64,000 nucleotides of DNA from contig JAEUJQ010000052.1 of the NCBI GenBank assembly GCA_016793095.1, forward strand, positions 186,001-250,000. Direction: 5' to 3'. Shown in pieces: positions 28,733 through 42,950 of the stretch. Positions within the stretch are counted from its first letter, which is position 1; each line of letters begins with the position of its first letter. The position numbers were made by a program, and so were the translations under genes. The DNA comes from Myxococcaceae bacterium. GTDB taxonomy: Bacteria > Myxococcota > Myxococcia > Myxococcales > Myxococcaceae. The notes beneath the pieces were generated by a model, which had not been told where the DNA came from, made no database searches, and worked only from the letters and a program-made list of their open reading frames with translations.

Positions 28733-29221
28733 TCACTCCACGTCGCGGACGATCAGCGTGTTGGTGCGCGCGTCCACGCTCACCGTGCCCCGCGGCGACA
28801 AGAGGCCCTTCACCTGCTGCGCGAGCTCCTCGGCGTTCGCGTAGTTGACGGGGATGAGGCGCACTGAGAGCGGCCTCTCGGCGAGCTGGGCGTCCTGCAC
28901 CTTGCGGCGCGCCTCGGCCTCCTCGGCCAGCTTCGAGAGCGGCGCCACCCGCACGATCGAGCCGACCCGCTCGACGCCCAGCCCCTTCGACGCCACCACC
29001 ACCCGGAACGCCTCGTCCCAGGGCACGTTCCGCAGCTTCAGCGTCACCTTGCCCGACACCTCCTCGCTGGTGACGAGGTTGAAGCGGCCCACCTCGGCGA
29101 ACAGGCGCAGCACCGAGTGCAGCTCGGCGTTGTGCAGCTCGAGGCTGATGCGGCGTGGCGCCCCCGCGAGCGCAGCCGTGGAGGTGCAGAGGGTGAGGGC
29201 GAGGACGAGGGTGGTGCGCAT
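28733..29221 (-). CDS. Short PilQ-like secretin N-domain protein (no secretin pore)
   Basis: A 162-residue protein with signal peptide (LALTLCTSTAALA). An STN/N0-like domain follows (ISLELHNAELHSVLRLFAEV, TLKLRNVPWDEAFRVVVASK), then an N1-like segment (RLIPVNYANAEELAQQVKGL, VSVDARTNTLIVRDVE). This is the order found before the pore of PilQ-type secretins, yet the gene stops right after the TLIVRD motif. It may be a stand-alone periplasmic adaptor for a type IV pilus or secretion machine, or a decayed remnant. The stop forms TGATCA with that of the converging cyclase gene. Confidence 0.78.
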   Translation of the reverse strand: MRTTLVLALTLCTSTAALAGAPRRISLELHNAELHSVLRLFAEVGRFNLVTSEEVSGKVTLKLRNVPWDEAFRVVVASKGLGVERVGSIVRVAPLSKLAEEAEARRKVQDAQLAERPLSVRLIPVNYANAEELAQQVKGLLSPRGTVSVDARTNTLIVRDVE

Positions 29222-33654: not shown

Positions 33655-34317
33655 GTGGAAGAGCTCACCGACCGGCAGAAAGAGATCCTCTCGTTCATCA
33701 CCAAGACGAGCGAGGAGCGCGGGTTCCCGCCGACGATCCGCGAGATCGGCGAGGAGATGGGCATCGCCTCCACGAACGGGGTGAACGATCACCTGAAGGC
33801 CCTCGAGCGCAAGGGGTACCTCACGCGGGGAGAACAGCAGAGCCGCTCGCTCGTTCCCACCAAGCGGGCGCGCCTCATCCTCGGGCTGGGCAGCCCCTCG
33901 AAGCGTGACGCCAACATGATCGACGTCCCCCTGCTCGGGCGGGTCGCCGCAGGTGCACCCCTGCTCGCGACCGAGAACATCGAAGACTCGGTGCGCATCG
34001 ACTCGTTCCTGCTGGGCGGCGCTGGTGGGAAAGAGGTCTTCGCCCTGCGCGTGAAGGGCGAGTCGATGATCGAAGACGGCATCTACGACGGCGACTTCCT
34101 CTTCGTGCGCAAGGCGCCGAGCGCGTCACCGGGCGACATCGTGGTGGCGCTGATCGAGGACGAGGCCACGGTGAAGCGCTACTACCCCGAGGGCGACAAG
34201 ATCCGCTTTCAGCCCGCGAACAAGACGATGCAGCCGATCTACGTCCAGAAGTCCCAGTTCAAGCAGACGATGATCCTCGGGAAGGTCGTCGGCGTGTACC
34301 GGAAGATGCCGAGCTGA
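33655..34317 (+). CDS. lexA: LexA SOS-response repressor
   Basis: Transcriptional repressor and self-cleaving protease (220 aa) of the DNA-damage response. The N-terminal winged helix is [20 protein letters not shown] with [20 protein letters not shown]. The cleavage bond is A99-G100 (GRVAAGAP), and the catalytic Ser-Lys pair is S137 (KGESMIEDG) and K174 (EATVKRYY). RecA filaments trigger self-cleavage and so derepress SOS genes. The GTG at 33655 with AAAGGG upstream is chosen because the preceding frame is unlike LexA. Its operator is described at 33592. Confidence 0.97.
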
Positions 34318-34422: not shown

Positions 34423-35529
34423 TCACGGGCACTTCGCCGGCGCGATGCGCTCACAGGCCGTCTTCACCAGCTCCGCCCTGCCCTGCTCCTTCGCCATGCG
34501 CGCGAGCGCGAGCTGCAGCGGCTCGTTCTTCTTCTGCTCCTCTTCGGCGGCGACCGCCTCGAGCAGCTTGAGCCCGTCGGCCTTGCGATCGAGCGAGGCG
34601 AGGAAGGCGGCGAGCTCCATCGACTCGCGCACCTCCTCCCCGGTCGCGGTGGCCAGCGCCCGGTCGAGCTCGGCCTTCGCGCAGGCGCTGTCCTTGCGGG
34701 CGAGGCAGATGCGCCCGAGCCCCACGTGGTAGAGGGCCTGGTCCTTCGAGGCGAGCGCCTTCTTCCAGGCAGCCTCGGCCTTCTCGAGGCGGCCCTGGCG
34801 CAGCTCGAGCTCGGCGACCAGCTCCCAGGCGGTCGGGTCCTTCTCGGCCGTGGCCCCGTACGCGCCGATCGCGTCGTCCCAGCGCGAGGCCTCGACGTAG
34901 CGATCGCCCAGCTCCTGGTGGAGCTCCGGCGAGGTGATGCCCTTGCCCTTCGCCTGCTCGAGCACCTCGAGGGCCTTCGCGCCCTGCTTCGCCTTGACCA
35001 GCTCCTGCGCGGCCTTCACCACCAGCTCGGCCTGGGCCTTGCCGGGCGCCGAGTCGGCCGCCAGCAGGTAGCGTCGCACCGCCTCGTCGAGCTCGCCCTT
35101 CTCGAGCGCCGCGTCGCCGAGCGACTCGTGGGCGTTGAAGTCCTTCGGGTTGAGCTCGAGGGCCTTCGCGAGCGCCTCGGCCGACTTCGCTTTCTGATCC
35201 TTGATCGCGTACAGCACGCCCAGCCGGCTCCAGGTGGTGCCGCGCTTCGGGTCGAGCTTCGCGGCCTCCTCGAAGCGGGCGAGCGCCTCGTCGATGCGCT
35301 GCTCGGCCATCAACAGCTCCCCTTCTGCGCCGGGGAGCCGCTTGTCATCGGGCGAGAGCCTGCGCACCTCGTCGAAGTGCGTGTGGGCCTCCTTGAAGTC
35401 GCCCTTGAGGTACGCGGCCGTGGCGGCCACGTAGTGCCCGTCGGCCTCGGTCTTCGGGTCCACGGGCGGCGGGTCTTTCTTGCAGGCCCCGCAGACGAGG
35501 AGGAGGACGACCGTCGCGCGCAGCCTCAT
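34423..35529 (-). CDS. TPR-repeat putative lipoprotein
   Basis: A 368-residue protein with leader LRATVVLLLVCGAC and a likely lipid-attached cysteine. At least eight TPR-like helical pairs follow (AATAAYLKGDFKEAHTHFDE, RFEEAAKLDPKRGTTWSRLG, ALELNPKDFNAHESLGDAAL, LGRICLARKDSACAKAELDR), so it is a periplasmic-side protein-interaction scaffold. It is the last gene of a leftward set and overlaps the preceding TPR gene (ATGA). TPR lipoproteins often serve as pilotins or assembly factors in secretion and pilus systems, which fits the ATPase gene upstream, but this is inference. Confidence 0.78.
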   Translation of the reverse strand: MRLRATVVLLLVCGACKKDPPPVDPKTEADGHYVAATAAYLKGDFKEAHTHFDEVRRLSPDDKRLPGAEGELLMAEQRIDEALARFEEAAKLDPKRGTTWSRLGVLYAIKDQKAKSAEALAKALELNPKDFNAHESLGDAALEKGELDEAVRRYLLAADSAPGKAQAELVVKAAQELVKAKQGAKALEVLEQAKGKGITSPELHQELGDRYVEASRWDDAIGAYGATAEKDPTAWELVAELELRQGRLEKAEAAWKKALASKDQALYHVGLGRICLARKDSACAKAELDRALATATGEEVRESMELAAFLASLDRKADGLKLLEAVAAEEEQKKNEPLQLALARMAKEQGRAELVKTACERIAPAKCP

Positions 35530-36125
35530 CGCTTCTTGCCGAGCTTCTCGAGCAGTCGCTGCCGGCTGGCCGTCGCCTGGGGGTGGTTCGGCTGCGCCCC
35601 GAGCAGCGCGTCGAGCGTCGTGAGGGCGTCGTCGAAGCGGCCGAGGGCGTTCAGCGCGGCGGCGCGGTTGTAGCGGGCGGCCACGTGGGCGCCGTCGATG
35701 GCGAGCGCGTCGTCGAAGGACTTGAGGGCCTCGTCGGCGCGGTTGGCGACCAGCAGCGCGAGCCCGTAGTTCACGTGCACGTCGGGCAGCGCGGGCCCCC
35801 AGCGCATGGCCGTCTTCATCACCTCGAGCGCCTTCGCGGCTGCCGTGGCGTCTCCACCCCTGGCGCGCTCGAGCAGCACCGAGCCCAGGTTCGAGCGGTA
35901 CTCGGCGACCTCCGGCTCCGCGTCGACGGCCTTCTCGAAGTGGGCCTGCGCGGCGTCGAGATCGCCCTGGCGGAAGGCCAGGGTGCCGCGCGCGTACTGC
36001 CACAGCCCGCGCCCCTGCACCGGCACGGGCGCAGCGGTGAGGGCCTTGATCGCCCCGGCGACGTCGCCCTTCGCTTCGAGCGCCTTCGCCTGCTCGAGCA
36101 CCGTGTCCAGCGCGGCGCTGCTCAT
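35526..36125 (-). CDS. TPR-repeat protein
   Basis: A 199-residue soluble protein made almost wholly of TPR units (ALEAKGDVAGAIKALTAA, GTLAFRQGDLDAAQAHFEKA, DALAIDGAHVAARYNRAAAL) with no signal peptide, so probably cytoplasmic. It starts at the ATG overlapping the phospholipase stop (TGATG) and its own stop overlaps the TPR lipoprotein start (ATGA). Such coupling implies matched amounts of all three proteins. It may scaffold or chaperone the upstream gene products. No more specific family is visible. Confidence 0.75.
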   Translation of the reverse strand: MSSAALDTVLEQAKALEAKGDVAGAIKALTAAPVPVQGRGLWQYARGTLAFRQGDLDAAQAHFEKAVDAEPEVAEYRSNLGSVLLERARGGDATAAAKALEVMKTAMRWGPALPDVHVNYGLALLVANRADEALKSFDDALAIDGAHVAARYNRAAALNALGRFDDALTTLDALLGAQPNHPQATASRQRLLEKLGKKR

Positions 36126-37507
36126 CAGAACGTCCAGGCGAGCGTCGAGAGCGCCCACTGCTTCAGGTTCGTCATGAAGCTCTCGCGCTTCAGCTCGCCC
36201 AGGGTGATCTGCTTCGTCTCCTTGAGGCCGCCCGCGAAGCGCTCCTCGAGCGATCTGGCCGTCTTCGGGTCGGTGACGGCCATCGCGATCTCGGCGTCGG
36301 TGTTCTTCGAGCGCCCGTTCATGTTCACCGAGCCGACGATGGAGAAGTCCCCGTCGAAGGTCGCCGTCTTCGAGTGCAGCGTGCCGCCGTGCTTCTCGTA
36401 GATCTTCACGCCGGCCTTCATGAGGTCGTCGTAGAAGTGGCGCGCGGCGTCCGAGACGAAGCCCATGTCGTTGGCCTCGCGGCTGTTCGTCATCACCTTC
36501 ACGTCCACCCCGCGCTTCGCCGCGTCGATGAGCGCTCTGCGGATCTCGGGCGGCGGCAGGAAGTACGCGTTCTCGATGGTGATGCTCTTCGTCGCGGTGT
36601 CGATGGCCGTCTTGTAGAGGCGGGAGCTGGCCTGCTCGATGCCCTTCACCTCGGGGTTGTGCTGCACCACGCGCACCGAGGGGCCGCCTTCCTTCGGGAC
36701 CAGCGGCGGGTACAGCTTCGCCTTGTCGGCCTCGGAGATCGGCGCGCCGACCTCGTTCCAGTTGCGCAGGAACGCGTTCATGGAGTCACGCACCGCCGGC
36801 CCCTCGAGCTTCACGTCAGTGTCGCGCCAGGCCTCGGTGCCCTTGCCCTCCTTGCCGCCGCCGCGCGAGAGCACCATCTTGCCGGAGCCGCCGAGCGCGT
36901 ACTCGTCGGCGATGTTCATGCCGCCCAGCACCGCCGCCTGACCGTCGACGATCAGGTTCTTCTCGTGCCAGCGATCGTTGATGTCCCAGACCTTCCACTT
37001 CTCGCCGTAGGCGCGCACGTCGACGCCGGCCTGCTTCATCATCTCGAACATCTTCGGGTCGGCGCGGCCAGAGCCCACGGCGTCGTAGATGACGCGCACC
37101 TGCACGCCCTCCTTCGCTTTGGCCGCGAGCTGGTTGGCCAGCTTCCAGCCCGTCTCGTCGGAGTTGAAGATGAACGTCTGGAAGCAGACCGAGTGCTTCG
37201 CGCCGGCGATCATCTTCTCGCGCTCGGCGAACGACTGCACGCCGTCGTACAGCATCGACACGGTGTTGCCCTGTACGTTGCGCGACTTCGTCTCGGCGTC
37301 GAGGCGGGCCTCGAAGGCGGCGCTGCGGAAGCCCGACGGCGGCGGCGCGGTGGGCAGCGGGGTCGAGACCTTCTTCGCGGGCTGTGGCCCCTGCGCCGCC
37401 CAGCTCTTCTGGGTGGGCGCGGTGGGCGCGGCGGACGTGGTGGTCGCCGGCCTGGTGGGGGTGGAGACGCTCTGCGTCTGGGGTGTGGTCGGGCGCTGGA
37501 CCTTCAT
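36125..37507 (-). CDS. Phospholipase D / cardiolipin-synthase-like protein
   Basis: A 460-residue PLD-superfamily enzyme with two complete HKD motifs: H181-K183-D188 (RWHEKNLIVDG) and H378-K380-D385 (TLHSKTATFDG). The flanking GGMN and GSVNMNGRS are also standard. It could hydrolyse or transfer phosphatidyl groups or cleave another phosphodiester. The first ~60 residues are Thr/Pro/Ala/Gln-rich with no signal peptide or membrane helix, unlike cardiolipin synthases, which suggests either cytosolic action or export by a non-Sec route. It is 47 bp downstream of the secretion-type ATPase and overlaps a TPR gene. Confidence 0.88.
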   Translation of the reverse strand: MKVQRPTTPQTQSVSTPTRPATTTSAAPTAPTQKSWAAQGPQPAKKVSTPLPTAPPPSGFRSAAFEARLDAETKSRNVQGNTVSMLYDGVQSFAEREKMIAGAKHSVCFQTFIFNSDETGWKLANQLAAKAKEGVQVRVIYDAVGSGRADPKMFEMMKQAGVDVRAYGEKWKVWDINDRWHEKNLIVDGQAAVLGGMNIADEYALGGSGKMVLSRGGGKEGKGTEAWRDTDVKLEGPAVRDSMNAFLRNWNEVGAPISEADKAKLYPPLVPKEGGPSVRVVQHNPEVKGIEQASSRLYKTAIDTATKSITIENAYFLPPPEIRRALIDAAKRGVDVKVMTNSREANDMGFVSDAARHFYDDLMKAGVKIYEKHGGTLHSKTATFDGDFSIVGSVNMNGRSKNTDAEIAMAVTDPKTARSLEERFAGGLKETKQITLGELKRESFMTNLKQWALSTLAWTF

Positions 37508-37554
37508 GAGGAGCAGTTCTTACCGCCTGCTCGCGCCCCCGTCACGTCGGCCCG

Positions 37555-39378
37555 TCACTCCGCGCCGGTGGTCATGCGCACGACCTCTTCGAAGGCGGTC
37601 ACGCCCTGGTACAGCTTGCGGACGGCGGCCTCGCGCAGGTTGCGGAGCCCGCCCTTGCGCCCCGCCTCCACGAGCTGCTGGTGGGGCGCCTTGTGCGTGA
37701 TGAGGGACTTGATCTCGGGCGTCGCCGAGAAGATCTCGAACACCGCGGTGCGGCCGCGGAAGCCGGTGTTGCGGCACTTCACGCAGCCGGCCCCCTTCAT
37801 GAAGTTCGGCTCGCCGAGATCGGTGGGCAGGGGCGCCCTCAGCGCCTCGAGCTCGGCCCTGGCCAGCTTCACCGGCGTCGCGCAGTTGGTGCAGATCCGG
37901 CGCACCAGGCGCTGGGCCATGACGCCCAACAGGCTCGAGGAGAGCAGGAAGGCCGGCACGTCGAGATCGAGCATTCGGCCGACCGCGCCCACCGAGTCGT
38001 TCGTGTGCAGCGTCGAGAGCACCAGGTGGCCGGTGAGGGCCGACTGAATGGCGTTCTCGGCGGTCTCGGGGTCGCGGATCTCGCCGACCATGATGATGTC
38101 GGGATCCTGCCGGAGGATGTGACGGAGCGCGTTCGCGAAGTCGAGGCCGATCTTCGGCTGCACCTGGGTCTGGTTGAACGCCTCCCACACCATTTCGATC
38201 GGGTCTTCGATGGTGGTGACGTTCACGTCGGGTCCGGCGAGCGCCTTGAGGGCCGAGTAGAGCGTGGTCGTCTTGCCTGAGCCGGTGGGGCCGGTGACGA
38301 GGATCAGCCCGTGAGGCTCGGCGATCCACGACTCGAAGAGCTTCTTCTCGAGCGGGTCGAACCCGAGCTGGGCGATGTCCACCACCAGCGTCTCGGGGTC
38401 GAAGATGCGCATCACCACCTTCTCGCCAAAGGCGGTCGGCAGCGTCGACACGCGGATCTCGACCTCGTGGCCGTCGCGGTCGATCTTGATGCGGCCGTCC
38501 TGGGGCTTGCGCTTCTCGCTGATGTCGATGCGCGCGATCATCTTCACGCGTGACACGACGGGGGCGTGCACCTGCGGCGGCAACGTGTAGACCCCGTGCA
38601 GCACACCGTCGATCCGGAAGCGCACGATGGACTTGTCGCGCTTGGGCTCGATGTGAATGTCGCTCGCCCGGTTGTCGAAGGCCGAGCGCAGCAGGTGCTC
38701 GACGGCCTGGATGATCGAGCCGTCTTCAGGCGCCAGCTCCTTGTTCGACGCGCTCGAGAGGGTGACGAGCTGCTCGAAGTTCGAGACGCCGGTCGCGCTC
38801 GTCGCGAACTCGTCAGCGGCCGCGGCGAGCGTGCGCCGGAAGCCGTAGACGTCTTGAATGCCCTTCAAGATGTCCTGCTTGGCCGACAGCACCGGCTCGA
38901 TGGGGCAGTTCACCTGCCGCTCGAGGGTCTCGAAGAGCTGCGCGTCGAAGGGGTTGGCGACCGCCACCTTGAGCGGCATGCCCGGGCCGCCGCCCTCGAG
39001 GGGCAACAGGCAGTGCCGGGCGGCGAAGGGCTTCGAGATGGTGCGCGCCGCGAGGTTCATGTCGAGGCGCAGCGGGTCGATCTTCTTGTAGGGGACCTTC
39101 GCGGCGGCCGCGACGAGCTCGGTGATGCGATCTTGATCGAGCAGCTCGCCGGGCTTGTTCGGCATCGGCACCTGGAAGAGCGCGACGATCTCGATCGGCG
39201 AGACCTCGTACTTGTCGTCGCCCACCTGCTTGAGCACCCGCTTCTTCGCCTGCGCCTCGCGGGCGAGGACGTCCCCCGCCTGGCTGCGGGTGAGCAGCTT
39301 CCCGTCGACCAGCGCGTCGAGGACGAACTGGAGCGAGAAGTCCGTCGCCCGCCGCCGCCTGTCCTCCAGCTTCGTCAC
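37555..39378 (-). CDS. GspE/PilB-family secretion ATPase
   Basis: Hexameric AAA-type ATPase (607 aa) that powers pseudopilus or pilus assembly at the cytoplasmic membrane. It shows an N-terminal MshEN-like region, DNRASDIHIEP, Walker A GPTGSGKT (363-370), Asp box VTTIEDPIEM, Walker B RQDPDIIMVGEIRDPETAE, His box LHTND, and a tetracysteine zinc site (C496, C499, C532, C535). The zinc site favours GspE- or PilB-like assembly ATPases over PilT. It starts at a GTG overlapping the metzincin stop (GTGA). No other gsp or pil gene is adjacent, so it is probably a lone paralogue. Confidence 0.92.
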   Translation of the reverse strand: MTKLEDRRRRATDFSLQFVLDALVDGKLLTRSQAGDVLAREAQAKKRVLKQVGDDKYEVSPIEIVALFQVPMPNKPGELLDQDRITELVAAAAKVPYKKIDPLRLDMNLAARTISKPFAARHCLLPLEGGGPGMPLKVAVANPFDAQLFETLERQVNCPIEPVLSAKQDILKGIQDVYGFRRTLAAAADEFATSATGVSNFEQLVTLSSASNKELAPEDGSIIQAVEHLLRSAFDNRASDIHIEPKRDKSIVRFRIDGVLHGVYTLPPQVHAPVVSRVKMIARIDISEKRKPQDGRIKIDRDGHEVEIRVSTLPTAFGEKVVMRIFDPETLVVDIAQLGFDPLEKKLFESWIAEPHGLILVTGPTGSGKTTTLYSALKALAGPDVNVTTIEDPIEMVWEAFNQTQVQPKIGLDFANALRHILRQDPDIIMVGEIRDPETAENAIQSALTGHLVLSTLHTNDSVGAVGRMLDLDVPAFLLSSSLLGVMAQRLVRRICTNCATPVKLARAELEALRAPLPTDLGEPNFMKGAGCVKCRNTGFRGRTAVFEIFSATPEIKSLITHKAPHQQLVEAGRKGGLRNLREAAVRKLYQGVTAFEEVVRMTTGAE

Positions 39379-41135
39379 CGCCGACGCCTCCTGCGGGCCT
39401 CGAGCGCGAGCCCCAGCAGCGCCAGCATGGGGCCGAACGCGCCCGGCGTCGAACAAGCACACCCGGCGTTGCCCCCGCCGTTCGACACGCCTGCGTCGGG
39501 CCTCGGTACGAACGGCCGGCCGGCGTCGGGCACGTTGCAGAAGGTGCCGCAGCCGGCGTCGTTGGGATCGACGGGCAACACGCACTCCTGATCGAGGCAG
39601 GCCTGGCCGACGGGGCAGTCGGAGTCGCCCTGGCACGCGGGGACGCAGGCCTTCACGCCCGGGTAGTCGGCGCACCGCAGGCCCGGGCCGCAGCTGCGCG
39701 GGCCCGAGCACGTCTTCAAGCAGAACAGCTCGCCGCGATCGTCGGGGACACAGGCGGCGCCGGTCGGACACGCGCTGCACCCGCGCGCGCAGCTCAACGT
39801 GCACTGCTTCGCGGCGAACCGGCGATCGGCCTGCCGGCAGATCTGCCCCGAGCCGCACTGCGTGTCCTGCGTGCAGAGGGTGCCCACGGAGACGCCAGGC
39901 GTCTGCTTCGGCACACACCGGCCGTCGCACAGACGACACTCGTGGTCCACGGTGACGCCGTTGATGACCGGATCGACGCAGTCGGCCTCGACGCGGCAGA
40001 GCGGAATGCAGATGCCCGCGTTGCCTGACGTCATGCTGATGGTGTCGCACGCGTAGCCCGGCCGGCAGTCCGACAAGCCGACGCGACAGCTCTGCAGACA
40101 CACCCGCGTGCCCGACGTGGCCGGCAGGCACACGGAGTTCCCGGGACACGGGGGCTGGCCAACCTCGCACGTCTGGGTGCAGTAGCCGTCGGTCCACAGC
40201 GGCGTGCCGGTCGAGGCCTGGCCCGGCAGCAGGCAGTTGCCGAGGGCCGAACCACACTGGTTCGACATGGTGCACGCCTTGCCCACCTCGGTGACGCCGG
40301 CGCTCGGGTAGGTGCAGCCGTGGGTGCCGTTGGGCTGGAAGACCGTCGTCGGTTGGCACTCCATGGCCACCGGGCAGGGCACCGTGTTGGGCACGCACGC
40401 GTTCGAGCAGAAGCGCGTGGGGCCGACGTTACCCGTCCGGTTCACGCACTGGAGCGACGGATCGCAGCCTCCGTCCGCGAAGCACTGGGCGCCGGGTTTG
40501 CCGAAGGCGGGGTTCCCGTCGCAGACGCCGCGCACGTCGATCTGCGTGACGCTGCGTTTGTTCTCGCCACGCCGAATGTTCCCCTCCATCACCCCGAAGC
40601 CGTAGTGATCGAGCCCCAGACAGTGGCCCGCCTCGTGGGTCATCACCGACTGAATGTCGATGTCGTTCTGGGCGATCGGCAGCGTGGTGCTGAAGCTGAA
40701 CTGCCCGAGCCCGTTGAGGAAGACGTCGCAGGTCTGCAGCACGCCGCCGTACGCCCTGGGCACGGTGATGGCGAGGGTGAAGCCGCTGTCGAGCAGGTTC
40801 CGCGCATCGGGATCGGAGGCGTTCGTGATCCACGCCGGCGTCACGGAGAAGTTGTCGAAGCGGTCTTGCGGGTTGGCGACGAGGCCCGCCGTGAAGCCCT
40901 GGCTCTGCGTCTTCGGCATCGAGCAGAGGATGTTGTTCCACTCGTTCCACGCCGCCTCGATGGCGGGGCGCGCGGCGCTGATCGAGAACCCTCCCGGCGC
41001 GGCGACGCGGTTGTCGATGTAGTACGGGAAGGGCGCGGGGGCCGACGACAGCATGCGGTACTGCAGGAACTTGGGATCCTGCGCGAGCGCGGCGGACGAG
41101 AGCGCGAGGACCGTCACGACCAGCGCGCGCGTCAT
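39375..41135 (-). CDS. Secreted metzincin-type protease with MYXO-CTERM tag
   Basis: A 586-residue exported protein. A signal peptide (TVLALSSAALAQ) is followed by a catalytic domain with metzincin zinc motif HEAGHCLGLDH (H167, E168, H171, H177) and a downstream Met-turn candidate M183. A long disulfide-rich region with dozens of cysteines (CSNACVPNTVPCPVAMEC, CTQTCEVGQPPC) follows. The C terminus is Gly-Cys-Ala-Cys, a hydrophobic helix (GPMLALLGLALEA) and six arginines: the MYXO-CTERM tag that myxosortase processes for cell-surface display. It probably digests extracellular protein. It overlaps both neighbours. Confidence 0.88.
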   Translation of the reverse strand: MTRALVVTVLALSSAALAQDPKFLQYRMLSSAPAPFPYYIDNRVAAPGGFSISAARPAIEAAWNEWNNILCSMPKTQSQGFTAGLVANPQDRFDNFSVTPAWITNASDPDARNLLDSGFTLAITVPRAYGGVLQTCDVFLNGLGQFSFSTTLPIAQNDIDIQSVMTHEAGHCLGLDHYGFGVMEGNIRRGENKRSVTQIDVRGVCDGNPAFGKPGAQCFADGGCDPSLQCVNRTGNVGPTRFCSNACVPNTVPCPVAMECQPTTVFQPNGTHGCTYPSAGVTEVGKACTMSNQCGSALGNCLLPGQASTGTPLWTDGYCTQTCEVGQPPCPGNSVCLPATSGTRVCLQSCRVGLSDCRPGYACDTISMTSGNAGICIPLCRVEADCVDPVINGVTVDHECRLCDGRCVPKQTPGVSVGTLCTQDTQCGSGQICRQADRRFAAKQCTLSCARGCSACPTGAACVPDDRGELFCLKTCSGPRSCGPGLRCADYPGVKACVPACQGDSDCPVGQACLDQECVLPVDPNDAGCGTFCNVPDAGRPFVPRPDAGVSNGGGNAGCACSTPGAFGPMLALLGLALEARRRRRR

Positions 41136-41665
41136 CGCGACAGCTCCTTCGGCGCGGCGGGCCCACGCACCTTGCCGGCAGGGAGCGCCCGCACCTCGGC
41201 GATGAGGTCTCTCAGCGAGCGCCGCGCGCGCTCGTGGGTGAACATGTCGTGGACGATGACCGTGTCCGTGTCCACGATGGGCAGCTTCCCCTCCCCCATG
41301 GCGACCAGGTAGCAGCGCTCGGGCGAGGCCGCCGGGCAATGCAGGAAGACGAGCGCCCGCTCGCCGAGGGTGAACTCCGCGTCGCCGGGCACGATGACGC
41401 GCTCCTCGCCGCGCTGGCCCCCGAGCTGGATGAGGGTGACGCTCGACGGCCCCGTCCCCCGCACGTTCTCTCGAACCGTCAGCAGTGTGTGCGTCTTGAA
41501 CTTCCGCGGATCCACCGGGTCCGTCACGGTCTTGCGCTCGGTGACCTCGACCACGGCGACCCGGTCGGACGCCATCGCCCGTTGGGGCACCGTGTGCGGA
41601 ATCTGCGTCGTCGCCCAGGCCGCGCACGACAGCGCCGCCAGCACCACGAACACTCGCCTCTTCAT
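41132..41665 (-). CDS. Secreted protein of unknown function
   Basis: A 177-residue protein with signal peptide (MKRRVFVVLAALSCAAWA). The mature part is a beta-rich domain (ASDRVAVVEVTERKTVTDPV, THTLLTVRENVRGTGPSSVT, LGERALVFLHCP) with a C-terminal helix. It is the first gene of the leftward unit, and its stop overlaps the metzincin start (ATGA), so it may be a chaperone, inhibitor or partner of that protease. No family recognised. Confidence 0.72.
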   Translation of the reverse strand: MKRRVFVVLAALSCAAWATTQIPHTVPQRAMASDRVAVVEVTERKTVTDPVDPRKFKTHTLLTVRENVRGTGPSSVTLIQLGGQRGEERVIVPGDAEFTLGERALVFLHCPAASPERCYLVAMGEGKLPIVDTDTVIVHDMFTHERARRSLRDLIAEVRALPAGKVRGPAAPKELSR

Positions 41666-41808: not shown

Positions 41809-42561
41809 TCAACGCGTCGTCGGCGCTGCGTCACCAGGGCGCTGGGAGTCGAGGACCCGCCGCGTCGCCTCGAACAACGCCTCTGTGGTGGGTCGCTCGG
41901 CGGCGGCCCCGACCGGAATGCCCAGCTCCGCGAGCACCGCCGAGGTCGTCGGGCCGCTCGCGACGACGTGGACGTGCCCACGCCACCCGGGCTCCGTCGA
42001 GGCGACGAAGGCCTCGGCCGCAGAGGGAGAGTGCACCACCACGATCGAACCGTCGGGCAGCTCGGGGGCCACCGGCACCTCCGCCTGATCGTAGAGGCTC
42101 ACGAACGTAGAGCGACCAGGCACCTGCCCCAGCCATTCGCGCCAGGCCGGCTCGGCAGGCCCGCCGACCCACAGCACCTCGTCGTCCTCGTGGAGCAGCG
42201 CCTGGAGCGTCTCGAGGCGACCTTCGGCGCGCTCCGGCAGCACGTGTCGTGCCTCCCACCCGTGGCGGCCCAGCGCGCGGACGGTGTCGAGGCTCGGCGC
42301 GAGGAACGTGGCCCGCTGTGACGCGCTCCGGGCGCCGCTCGCGCGCACCACCTCGGCCAGCACGCGCACGGCGGTCGGAGACTCGGGGATCACCCAGGTG
42401 AACCGTCCCAGCTGCTCCCCGAGCGCCTGCAGAGACGGCCGCGCTGCGGCAGGGCTCACCGCCAGCACCGGCCAGTGCACGACCGACGCGCCCTCCTCCT
42501 CGAGCAGGAACGCGAGGTCGCGCACCTCCGAGGGATCGCGAAGCAGCAGGACGGTGGCCAT
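41809..42561 (-). CDS. hemD: Uroporphyrinogen-III synthase
   Basis: A 250-residue bi-lobed protein matching the poorly conserved HemD family, which cyclises hydroxymethylbilane to uroporphyrinogen III in haem synthesis. Features: N-terminal [71 protein letters not shown] and [20 protein letters not shown]. Length is typical. It is preceded by a small conserved gene 11 bases away. hemC is not in view. Assignment is by pattern of the two-lobe repeats. Confidence 0.8.
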
Positions 42562-42572
42562 CGCTGGCGCGC

Positions 42573-42950
42573 TCAGAGCTTGTCGAGGATGAACGCGGCG
42601 AGCAGGTCGGCTTCGGGGTTCGCGGCCTTCTTCTTCGGGTCTGCTCTGGGCGGCGCGGGGGCCTGCACCTCGGTGACGTACCCCTCGGCCACCTCGTAGG
42701 CCGCCTCACCGAGGATGACCGAGTCAGCGAAGTGCTCGGCGCCCAGCCCCTGGAGCTGCGCCTGCGTCTTCACCCGCCCGACCAGGCTGTTCGTGTCTTC
42801 GCCCGAGACCAGCTTGACGAAGTGCACGGCGGGAGAGACGGGGTGCGACGACGCCCCACCTTCCTTCACCACGAGCTTGCCGTCCTGGAGATCGGCCTTC
42901 TCGTTCATCGACCAATCTTCCAGGGTCTTCTGAGGCAGAAAGAGCTTCAC
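42573..42950 (-). CDS. Conserved hypothetical protein
   Basis: A 125-residue cytoplasmic protein ([20 protein letters not shown]) with a compact N-terminal beta domain ([20 protein letters not shown]), a middle helix, a Pro/Lys-rich linker ([18 protein letters not shown]) and a short C-terminal helix. It lies 11 bases upstream of hemD, suggesting co-transcription, and is divergent from trxA. No domain is recognised; a regulatory or structural role cannot be inferred. Confidence 0.7.

Follow-up and report, generated by a model that had tools for sequence, protein, structure and literature searches.

A TfpB-like ATPase within a mosaic six-gene run of a Myxococcaceae bacterium

A run of six same-strand genes in a Myxococcaceae bacterium most probably combines three modules of separate history, namely an ATPase related to TfpB that would act as a pilus-accessory motor, a gene pair for ordinarily exported proteins (SEC1 and METZ) and a passenger block headed by a gene of the phospholipase D (PLD) superfamily. 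We hold this composite reading with moderate confidence. Several of its parts stand more firmly: at the level of sequence comparison the lineage of the ATPase, its orphan status, the modularity of the run, the intact active sites and the MYXO-CTERM tag of METZ are well established.

Results

Architecture of the six-gene run

The window analysed here is a stretch of 64,000 nt. All six genes lie on the minus strand, spanning 41665..34423, and the order from upstream is SEC1, METZ, ATPase, PLD, TPR and TPR lipoprotein. Together with their surroundings the features are:

42573-42950, minus strand: gene of 125 aa upstream of hemD, part of the same-strand run
41809..42561, minus strand: hemD (HEM4, 83.6 bits), neighbour on the upstream side of SEC1/METZ/ATPase, conserved across the family by synteny
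41132..41665, minus strand: SEC1, small predicted-secreted protein of 177 aa with an N-terminal signal sequence recognised by eye, companion of a matrixin-type protease
39375..41135, minus strand: METZ, predicted-secreted metzincin/matrixin-like protease of 586 aa with a MYXO-CTERM tail (profiles and motif)
37555..39378, minus strand: TfpB-like extension-type ATPase of 607 aa, GTG start (profiles, tree and motifs)
37508..37554, minus strand: 47-bp gap joining the hemD-SEC1-METZ-ATPase block to the PLD-TPR-TPR lipoprotein block
36125..37507, minus strand: PLD-superfamily protein, cardiolipin-synthase-like, 460 aa (PLDc_2 147 bits, two HKD motifs)
35526..36125, minus strand: TPR protein of 199 aa (domain call)
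34423..35529, minus strand: TPR lipoprotein of 368 aa with a lipobox-like CGACKK (domain call)
33655..34317, plus strand: lexA-like repressor, named from sequence, convergent and closing the same-strand run

A first-pass annotation had described six leftward genes with four overlapping junctions and one 47-bp gap, and inspection of all five junctions bears this out. ATGA overlaps join SEC1 to METZ (41132-41135) and TPR to the TPR lipoprotein (35526-35529), a GTGA overlap joins METZ to the ATPase (39375-39378) and a TGATG joins PLD to TPR (36125). The gene order and domain calls given there hold as well, with T2SSE at 424 bits, PLDc_2 at 147 bits, clear TPR matches and TIGR03901 above its cut-off. 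The same-strand run begins before SEC1, as hemD lies on the same strand across a gap of 143 bp. Scans of the run for promoters and terminators gave no match above shuffled expectation. Start/stop codon overlaps are frequent in high-GC genomes, and for this reason the overlaps suggest that the six genes are co-transcribed but do not show a functional unit.

The ATPase belongs to a third lineage related to TfpB

The ATPase is a member of the GspE/PilB-type superfamily (T2SSE, PF00437, 424 bits) and its top PDB matches are PilB and GspE structures. By alignment its Walker A motif, Asp box, Walker B/His box, tetracysteine zinc motif and hexamer-type core are intact. The best curated model is TfpB (NF053534) with 619.9 bits, the equivalog cut-off of 850 not being reached; the scores with the PilB model (TIGR02538, 533.9 bits) and the GspE model (TIGR02533, 522.2 bits) are under the cut-offs of 675.65 and 630.25, respectively. 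The genome encodes a PilB of its own adjoining pilT and pilC (G000:C9) and a GspE within a gsp cluster (G000:C55), which at 806 and 736 bits are over the respective PilB and GspE cut-offs. Relatives from Myxococcota, Acidobacteriota and Nitrospirota score 641-678 bits with the TfpB model, and four beta-/gammaproteobacterial members of the group exceed 850, the one from Pseudomonas with 963 bits.

A tree, as proposed in the first-pass annotation, places the ATPase outside both the PilB and the GspE clades. Among 83 proteins (quick search, LG+G4), the Myxococcota group and its homologues from Acidobacteriota, Desulfobacterota, Nitrospirota and Pseudomonadota lie on one side of a branch with an SH-aLRT support of 100, and 23 Myxococcota PilB, GspE and other paralogues all lie on the other, that side representing Myxococcota PilB/GspE only. 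Long branches were flagged in this tree and the deep order inside the TfpB-like group is not settled. A motif IDPL[KR][LIV] is found in the TfpB-like group, where it reads IDPLRLD in the window ATPase, and is absent from the genome's own PilB and GspE. Model scores and tree together rule out an ordinary PilB or GspE, and on these comparisons the ATPase represents a third lineage, related to TfpB.

The TfpB of Acinetobacter baylyi (NF053534; Ellison et al. 2021, PMC8213720) corresponds to the top curated model and falls into the same supported tree group as the window ATPase. It carries the motif as IDPLK[LI], and here too the gene is an orphan, distant from the pil genes and co-resident with PilB. 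In contrast, the window ATPase forms a deep sister branch, and its N-terminal region is unlike that of TfpB in length and sequence. Since 620 bits is below the cut-off of 850, a shared function would follow from relationship only, and a TfpB-like role here would be one by analogy. With PilB the window ATPase has the core and the Walker, Asp-box, His-box and tetracysteine motifs in common, but identity is about 40%, the gene is unlinked to pilT/pilC and the c-di-GMP motif RLGxxL is missing. The genome's own PilB carries this MshEN motif, and M. xanthus PilB binds c-di-GMP at the MshEN region (PMC11656802). GspE has the same ATPase core, but identity is about 42% and the gene is unlinked to gspD/F/G.

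The ATPase is a widespread orphan

Single copies of the ATPase are present in 87 of 117 sampled Myxococcota genomes, and TfpB-like ATPases also occur in Acidobacteriota, Desulfobacterota and Pseudomonadota. No recurring pilus or secretion genes were found near the gene in any phylum examined, its neighbours outside Myxococcota being unrelated housekeeping genes. The absence of platform, pilin and secretin genes beside it agrees with the first-pass annotation, according to which other secretion components are lacking and the ATPase would borrow a machine. Genomes of 98-100% completeness such as G015, G016, G022 and G023 contain two platform-type proteins, PilC and GspF, versus three extension-type ATPases, which leaves the third ATPase without a platform to itself as far as a search with one query, which could miss distant platforms, can tell.

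An orphan PilC/GspF-like platform protein is encoded at L209:7437-8483 (G000:C65), with no ATPase, pilin or secretin gene nearby. We rejected it as a general partner of the ATPase: just some 10 of 25 genomes from the same family encode it, and nearly all of these 25 have the ATPase. At L067:8915-10411 (G000:C76) lies the gene for another GspE/PilB-type ATPase, divergent, long-branched in the tree and hydrophobic in an N-terminal region, with no pilus genes nearby. The ATPase match in G025:C80 (L030, L055) crosses one internal TGA, perhaps through faulty assembly or because the gene is broken.

In other Myxococcota families an AAA ATPase directly follows the TfpB-like ATPase (L057, L058, L059, L061, L062, L069, L108, L272, L274); this neighbour is found in Anaeromyxobacter-type and other non-Myxococcaceae families. 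Its Pfam match is to AAA only, and we take it to be Ycf46-like. As an obligate partner it was discarded, its homologues being found nearly everywhere, whether the ATPase is present or not.

Co-occurrence favours the pilus over the type II secretion system

To which machine the ATPase belongs was approached through its co-occurrence with PilB and GspE in the 117 Myxococcota genomes. PilB was found in 85 of 87 ATPase-positive versus 16 of 30 ATPase-negative genomes (Fisher p 3e-8) and GspE in 86 of 87 versus 26 of 30 (p 0.015), in a test that ignores shared ancestry as well as small genomes and genome reduction. The two ATPase-positive genomes in which PilB went undetected are G124 (95% complete, GspE present) and G062 (75% complete). 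GspE accompanied by neither PilB nor the ATPase is found in six small genomes of family f26 (G065, G069, G081, G091, G093, G095) and in the same-family G126. Co-occurrence and the f26/G126 pattern favour the pilus over the type II secretion system (T2SS) as partner. In families f6 and f7, PilB and GspE are both present and the ATPase is not, so that neither the pilus nor the T2SS needs it.

In A. baylyi TfpB has been shown experimentally to be a second type IV pilus motor, the loss of which is not repaired by PilB overexpression (PMC8213720). Deletion of pilB in M. xanthus leaves no detectable pili (PMC11656802); the ATPase thus cannot replace PilB there and would be accessory. For the M. xanthus orthologue no published phenotype turned up in the literature searched. 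Overall, the ATPase appears to borrow an existing platform, more likely that of the type IV pilus than that of the T2SS.

SEC1 and METZ form a separate module

METZ has an intact zinc motif, HEAGHCLGLDH (HExxHxxGxxH), and matches Peptidase_M10 with 23.3 bits, just below the cut-off of 24. Its middle part is Cys-rich, and the tail, composed of GCAC, a hydrophobic stretch and an Arg run, scores 21.9 bits with the MYXO-CTERM model (TIGR03901), over the cut-off of 20. This tail is kept in all METZ orthologues examined. The protease region (residues 129-221) is related, with 35 bits, to the MXAN_2677/2678 myxosortase-dependent metalloprotease family (NF041905), but METZ remains far under the 250-bit cut-off of that model and its Cys-rich C-terminal half differs.

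The SEC1 family has no match in Pfam, NCBIfam or PDB, and further relatives sought in viral contigs were not found. An AlphaFold model from two sequences, with a pLDDT of 46, is too poor to judge the fold. That SEC1 might be a TIMP/NTR-like inhibitor of METZ, as its sequence suggested by eye, was considered and rejected: hhalign gave a probability of 3.4% against a single, approximate TIMP sequence, and Pfam and PDB profile searches revealed no TIMP/NTR similarity.

Of 29 Myxococcaceae-type loci, the family being so called on genome size and gene content, 21 carry an intact METZ gene immediately upstream of the ATPase, often with overlapping stop and start codons; the tally includes G004 and G008. 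One locus (L053) retains a degenerate METZ consisting of a 273-aa C-terminal part only, and seven (L052, L063, L260, L261, L264, L267, L269) lack METZ, with hemD adjoining the ATPase. Among the METZ-less ATPase loci are those of three out of four examined g35 genomes (9-13 Mb). The order SEC1-METZ-ATPase is also seen in G024, which belongs to another family, there without hemD; in all remaining Myxococcota families examined the ATPase occurs without METZ. The ATPase-metzincin linkage extends past close relatives: it is retained in the 21 loci and in G024, and it is broken in the seven. Such a linkage in most Myxococcaceae, often with overlapping codons, could reflect some functional tie.

Nearly everywhere that SEC1 occurs a matrixin-type gene goes with it, and such pairs exist unlinked to the ATPase, for example near gltX in G009, G012 and G016 and also in G025. 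The two-gene module of SEC1-family and matrixin-type genes recurs at L088, L090-L095, L097, L099 and L100, often near gltX.

MYXO-CTERM export and the ATPase

According to current work MYXO-CTERM proteins pass through Sec, proposed lipidation, cleavage by the myxosortase MrtX and the T2SS, in a model without a special ATPase (PMC11980579). The surface sorting of such proteins via T2SS and myxosortase, invoked in the first-pass annotation, agrees with this. METZ shares with them the signal sequence, the Cys motif, the hydrophobic stretch and the Arg-rich tail; it differs in that the window's genus has GCAC instead of GCGC, and its export is predicted. We infer that METZ takes the Sec/myxosortase/T2SS route.

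MYXO-CTERM matches, counted as lower bounds, are present in six ATPase-negative genomes (G028, G029, G034, G035, G037, G039), and none was detected, with counts that are again lower bounds, in the ATPase-positive G033. On sequence evidence MYXO-CTERM proteins and the ATPase thus occur independently. This pattern speaks in both directions against the suggestion of a dedicated secretion ATPase with its own cargo, as do the persistence of the ATPase without METZ and the SEC1/METZ pairs far from any such ATPase. As far as the comparative data show, METZ does not appear to depend on the neighbouring ATPase.

The PLD block is a variable attachment

PLD has no obvious signal peptide. The PLD-TPR-TPR lipoprotein block adjoins the ATPase only in the window, G006, G002 and G021. 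In three genomes of the same genus (G001, G003, G005) it follows a cbb3-oxidase/ccoG cluster on another contig, and in G001 and G005 lexA and Mla genes come after it. The ATPase is followed by unrelated convergent genes in G001 and G003, and in G004 the distance from ATPase to PLD is about 3 kb and contains a gene on the opposite strand. By synteny the join between the ATPase block and the PLD block is exactly the 47-bp gap. The earlier view of the six genes as one unit gives way to separate blocks, the PLD/TPR block being unlinked in three same-genus species. On comparison across genomes the run is not kept as a unit and is a mosaic of separate blocks.

Elsewhere in the window (28733-29221, minus strand) lies a gene for a 162-aa stand-alone protein with STN and Secretin_N domains and no secretin barrel. 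It adjoins genes for a TPR-like protein and MlaD/F/E-type genes.

Discussion

In the mosaic that we consider most probable, the ATPase would be an orphan hexameric extension-type motor whose gene is not accompanied by genes for a platform, a pilin or a secretin. With TfpB as the guide, this motor would dock on an existing platform, probably PilC of the type IV pilus, where it would help to build pili in an accessory role, alongside PilB and not in its place. METZ would leave by Sec, its MYXO-CTERM tag leading to myxosortase processing and lipid anchoring, and cross the outer membrane through the ordinary T2SS, with SEC1 as the secreted companion of this surface metalloprotease. Within the lineage of Myxococcaceae the pair may have come to lie between hemD and the gene for the ATPase, and it would be co-expressed with the ATPase rather than served by it. 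PLD, TPR and TPR lipoprotein would form a passenger block attached at the 47-bp gap.

Another possibility, which we regard as unlikely, is that the ATPase no longer serves pili or secretion and has a signalling or regulatory role in the cytoplasm, possibly in concert with the adjoining AAA protein of other Myxococcota. The lack of pilus or secretion genes nearby in any lineage, the conserved adjacent Ycf46-like gene in Anaeromyxobacter-type and other families and the loss of the c-di-GMP motif would fit such a role, and in M. xanthus PilB itself takes part in signalling that controls exopolysaccharide (PMC5544727, PMC11656802). However, all catalytic and zinc motifs are retained, the best-characterised relative, TfpB, acts on the pilus, and AAA homologues are nearly universal among the genomes, whether or not these have the ATPase. 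Somewhat less likely still is an alternative motor of the T2SS platform, tuned to MYXO-CTERM surface cargo such as METZ. The T2SS is the route by which MYXO-CTERM proteins cross the outer membrane (PMC11980579), and GspE accompanies the ATPase in 86 of 87 genomes, including G124 without detected PilB; the placement of METZ just upstream of the ATPase, seen at 21 of the 29 Myxococcaceae-type loci and often with codon overlap, points the same way. Against this, the ATPase persists without METZ and in phyla without MYXO-CTERM, MYXO-CTERM proteins occur in ATPase-negative genomes, SEC1-matrixin pairs are found unlinked to the ATPase, and the seven GspE-positive, PilB-negative genomes (six of f26 and G126) are also without the ATPase. 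The stronger form of this idea, in which a third, phylum-wide motor docks on the T2SS platform and specialises it for MYXO-CTERM cargo, with the cargo protease placed in the motor's transcript in Myxococcaceae, seems highly improbable to us; if true, motor swapping would alter what a shared secretion machine delivers.

Least of all do we expect the six genes to be one functional operon for predation or envelope remodelling, a reading that we give very little credence. It would account for the common strand, the four overlapping junctions and the short 47-bp gap, and the six-gene order is indeed retained in G006, G002 and G021. The position of the PLD block after the cbb3 oxidase cluster in G001, G003 and G005, the unrelated convergent genes that follow the ATPase in G001 and G003, and the 3 kb or so with an opposite-strand gene between ATPase and PLD in G004 argue against it.

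The mosaic reading corrects a misleading operon, in which the function of the ATPase is not reported by the genes beside it. Myxobacteria are a main model for type IV pili, and our comparisons indicate that most Myxococcota have a third extension-type ATPase, conserved and present in single copy, on which we found no study in the literature searched. Work on TfpB has so far come from Acinetobacter, and its authors compared Gammaproteobacteria only (PMC8213720). With the same lineage in Myxococcota, Acidobacteriota and Desulfobacterota, the breadth of two-motor pilus assembly becomes testable.
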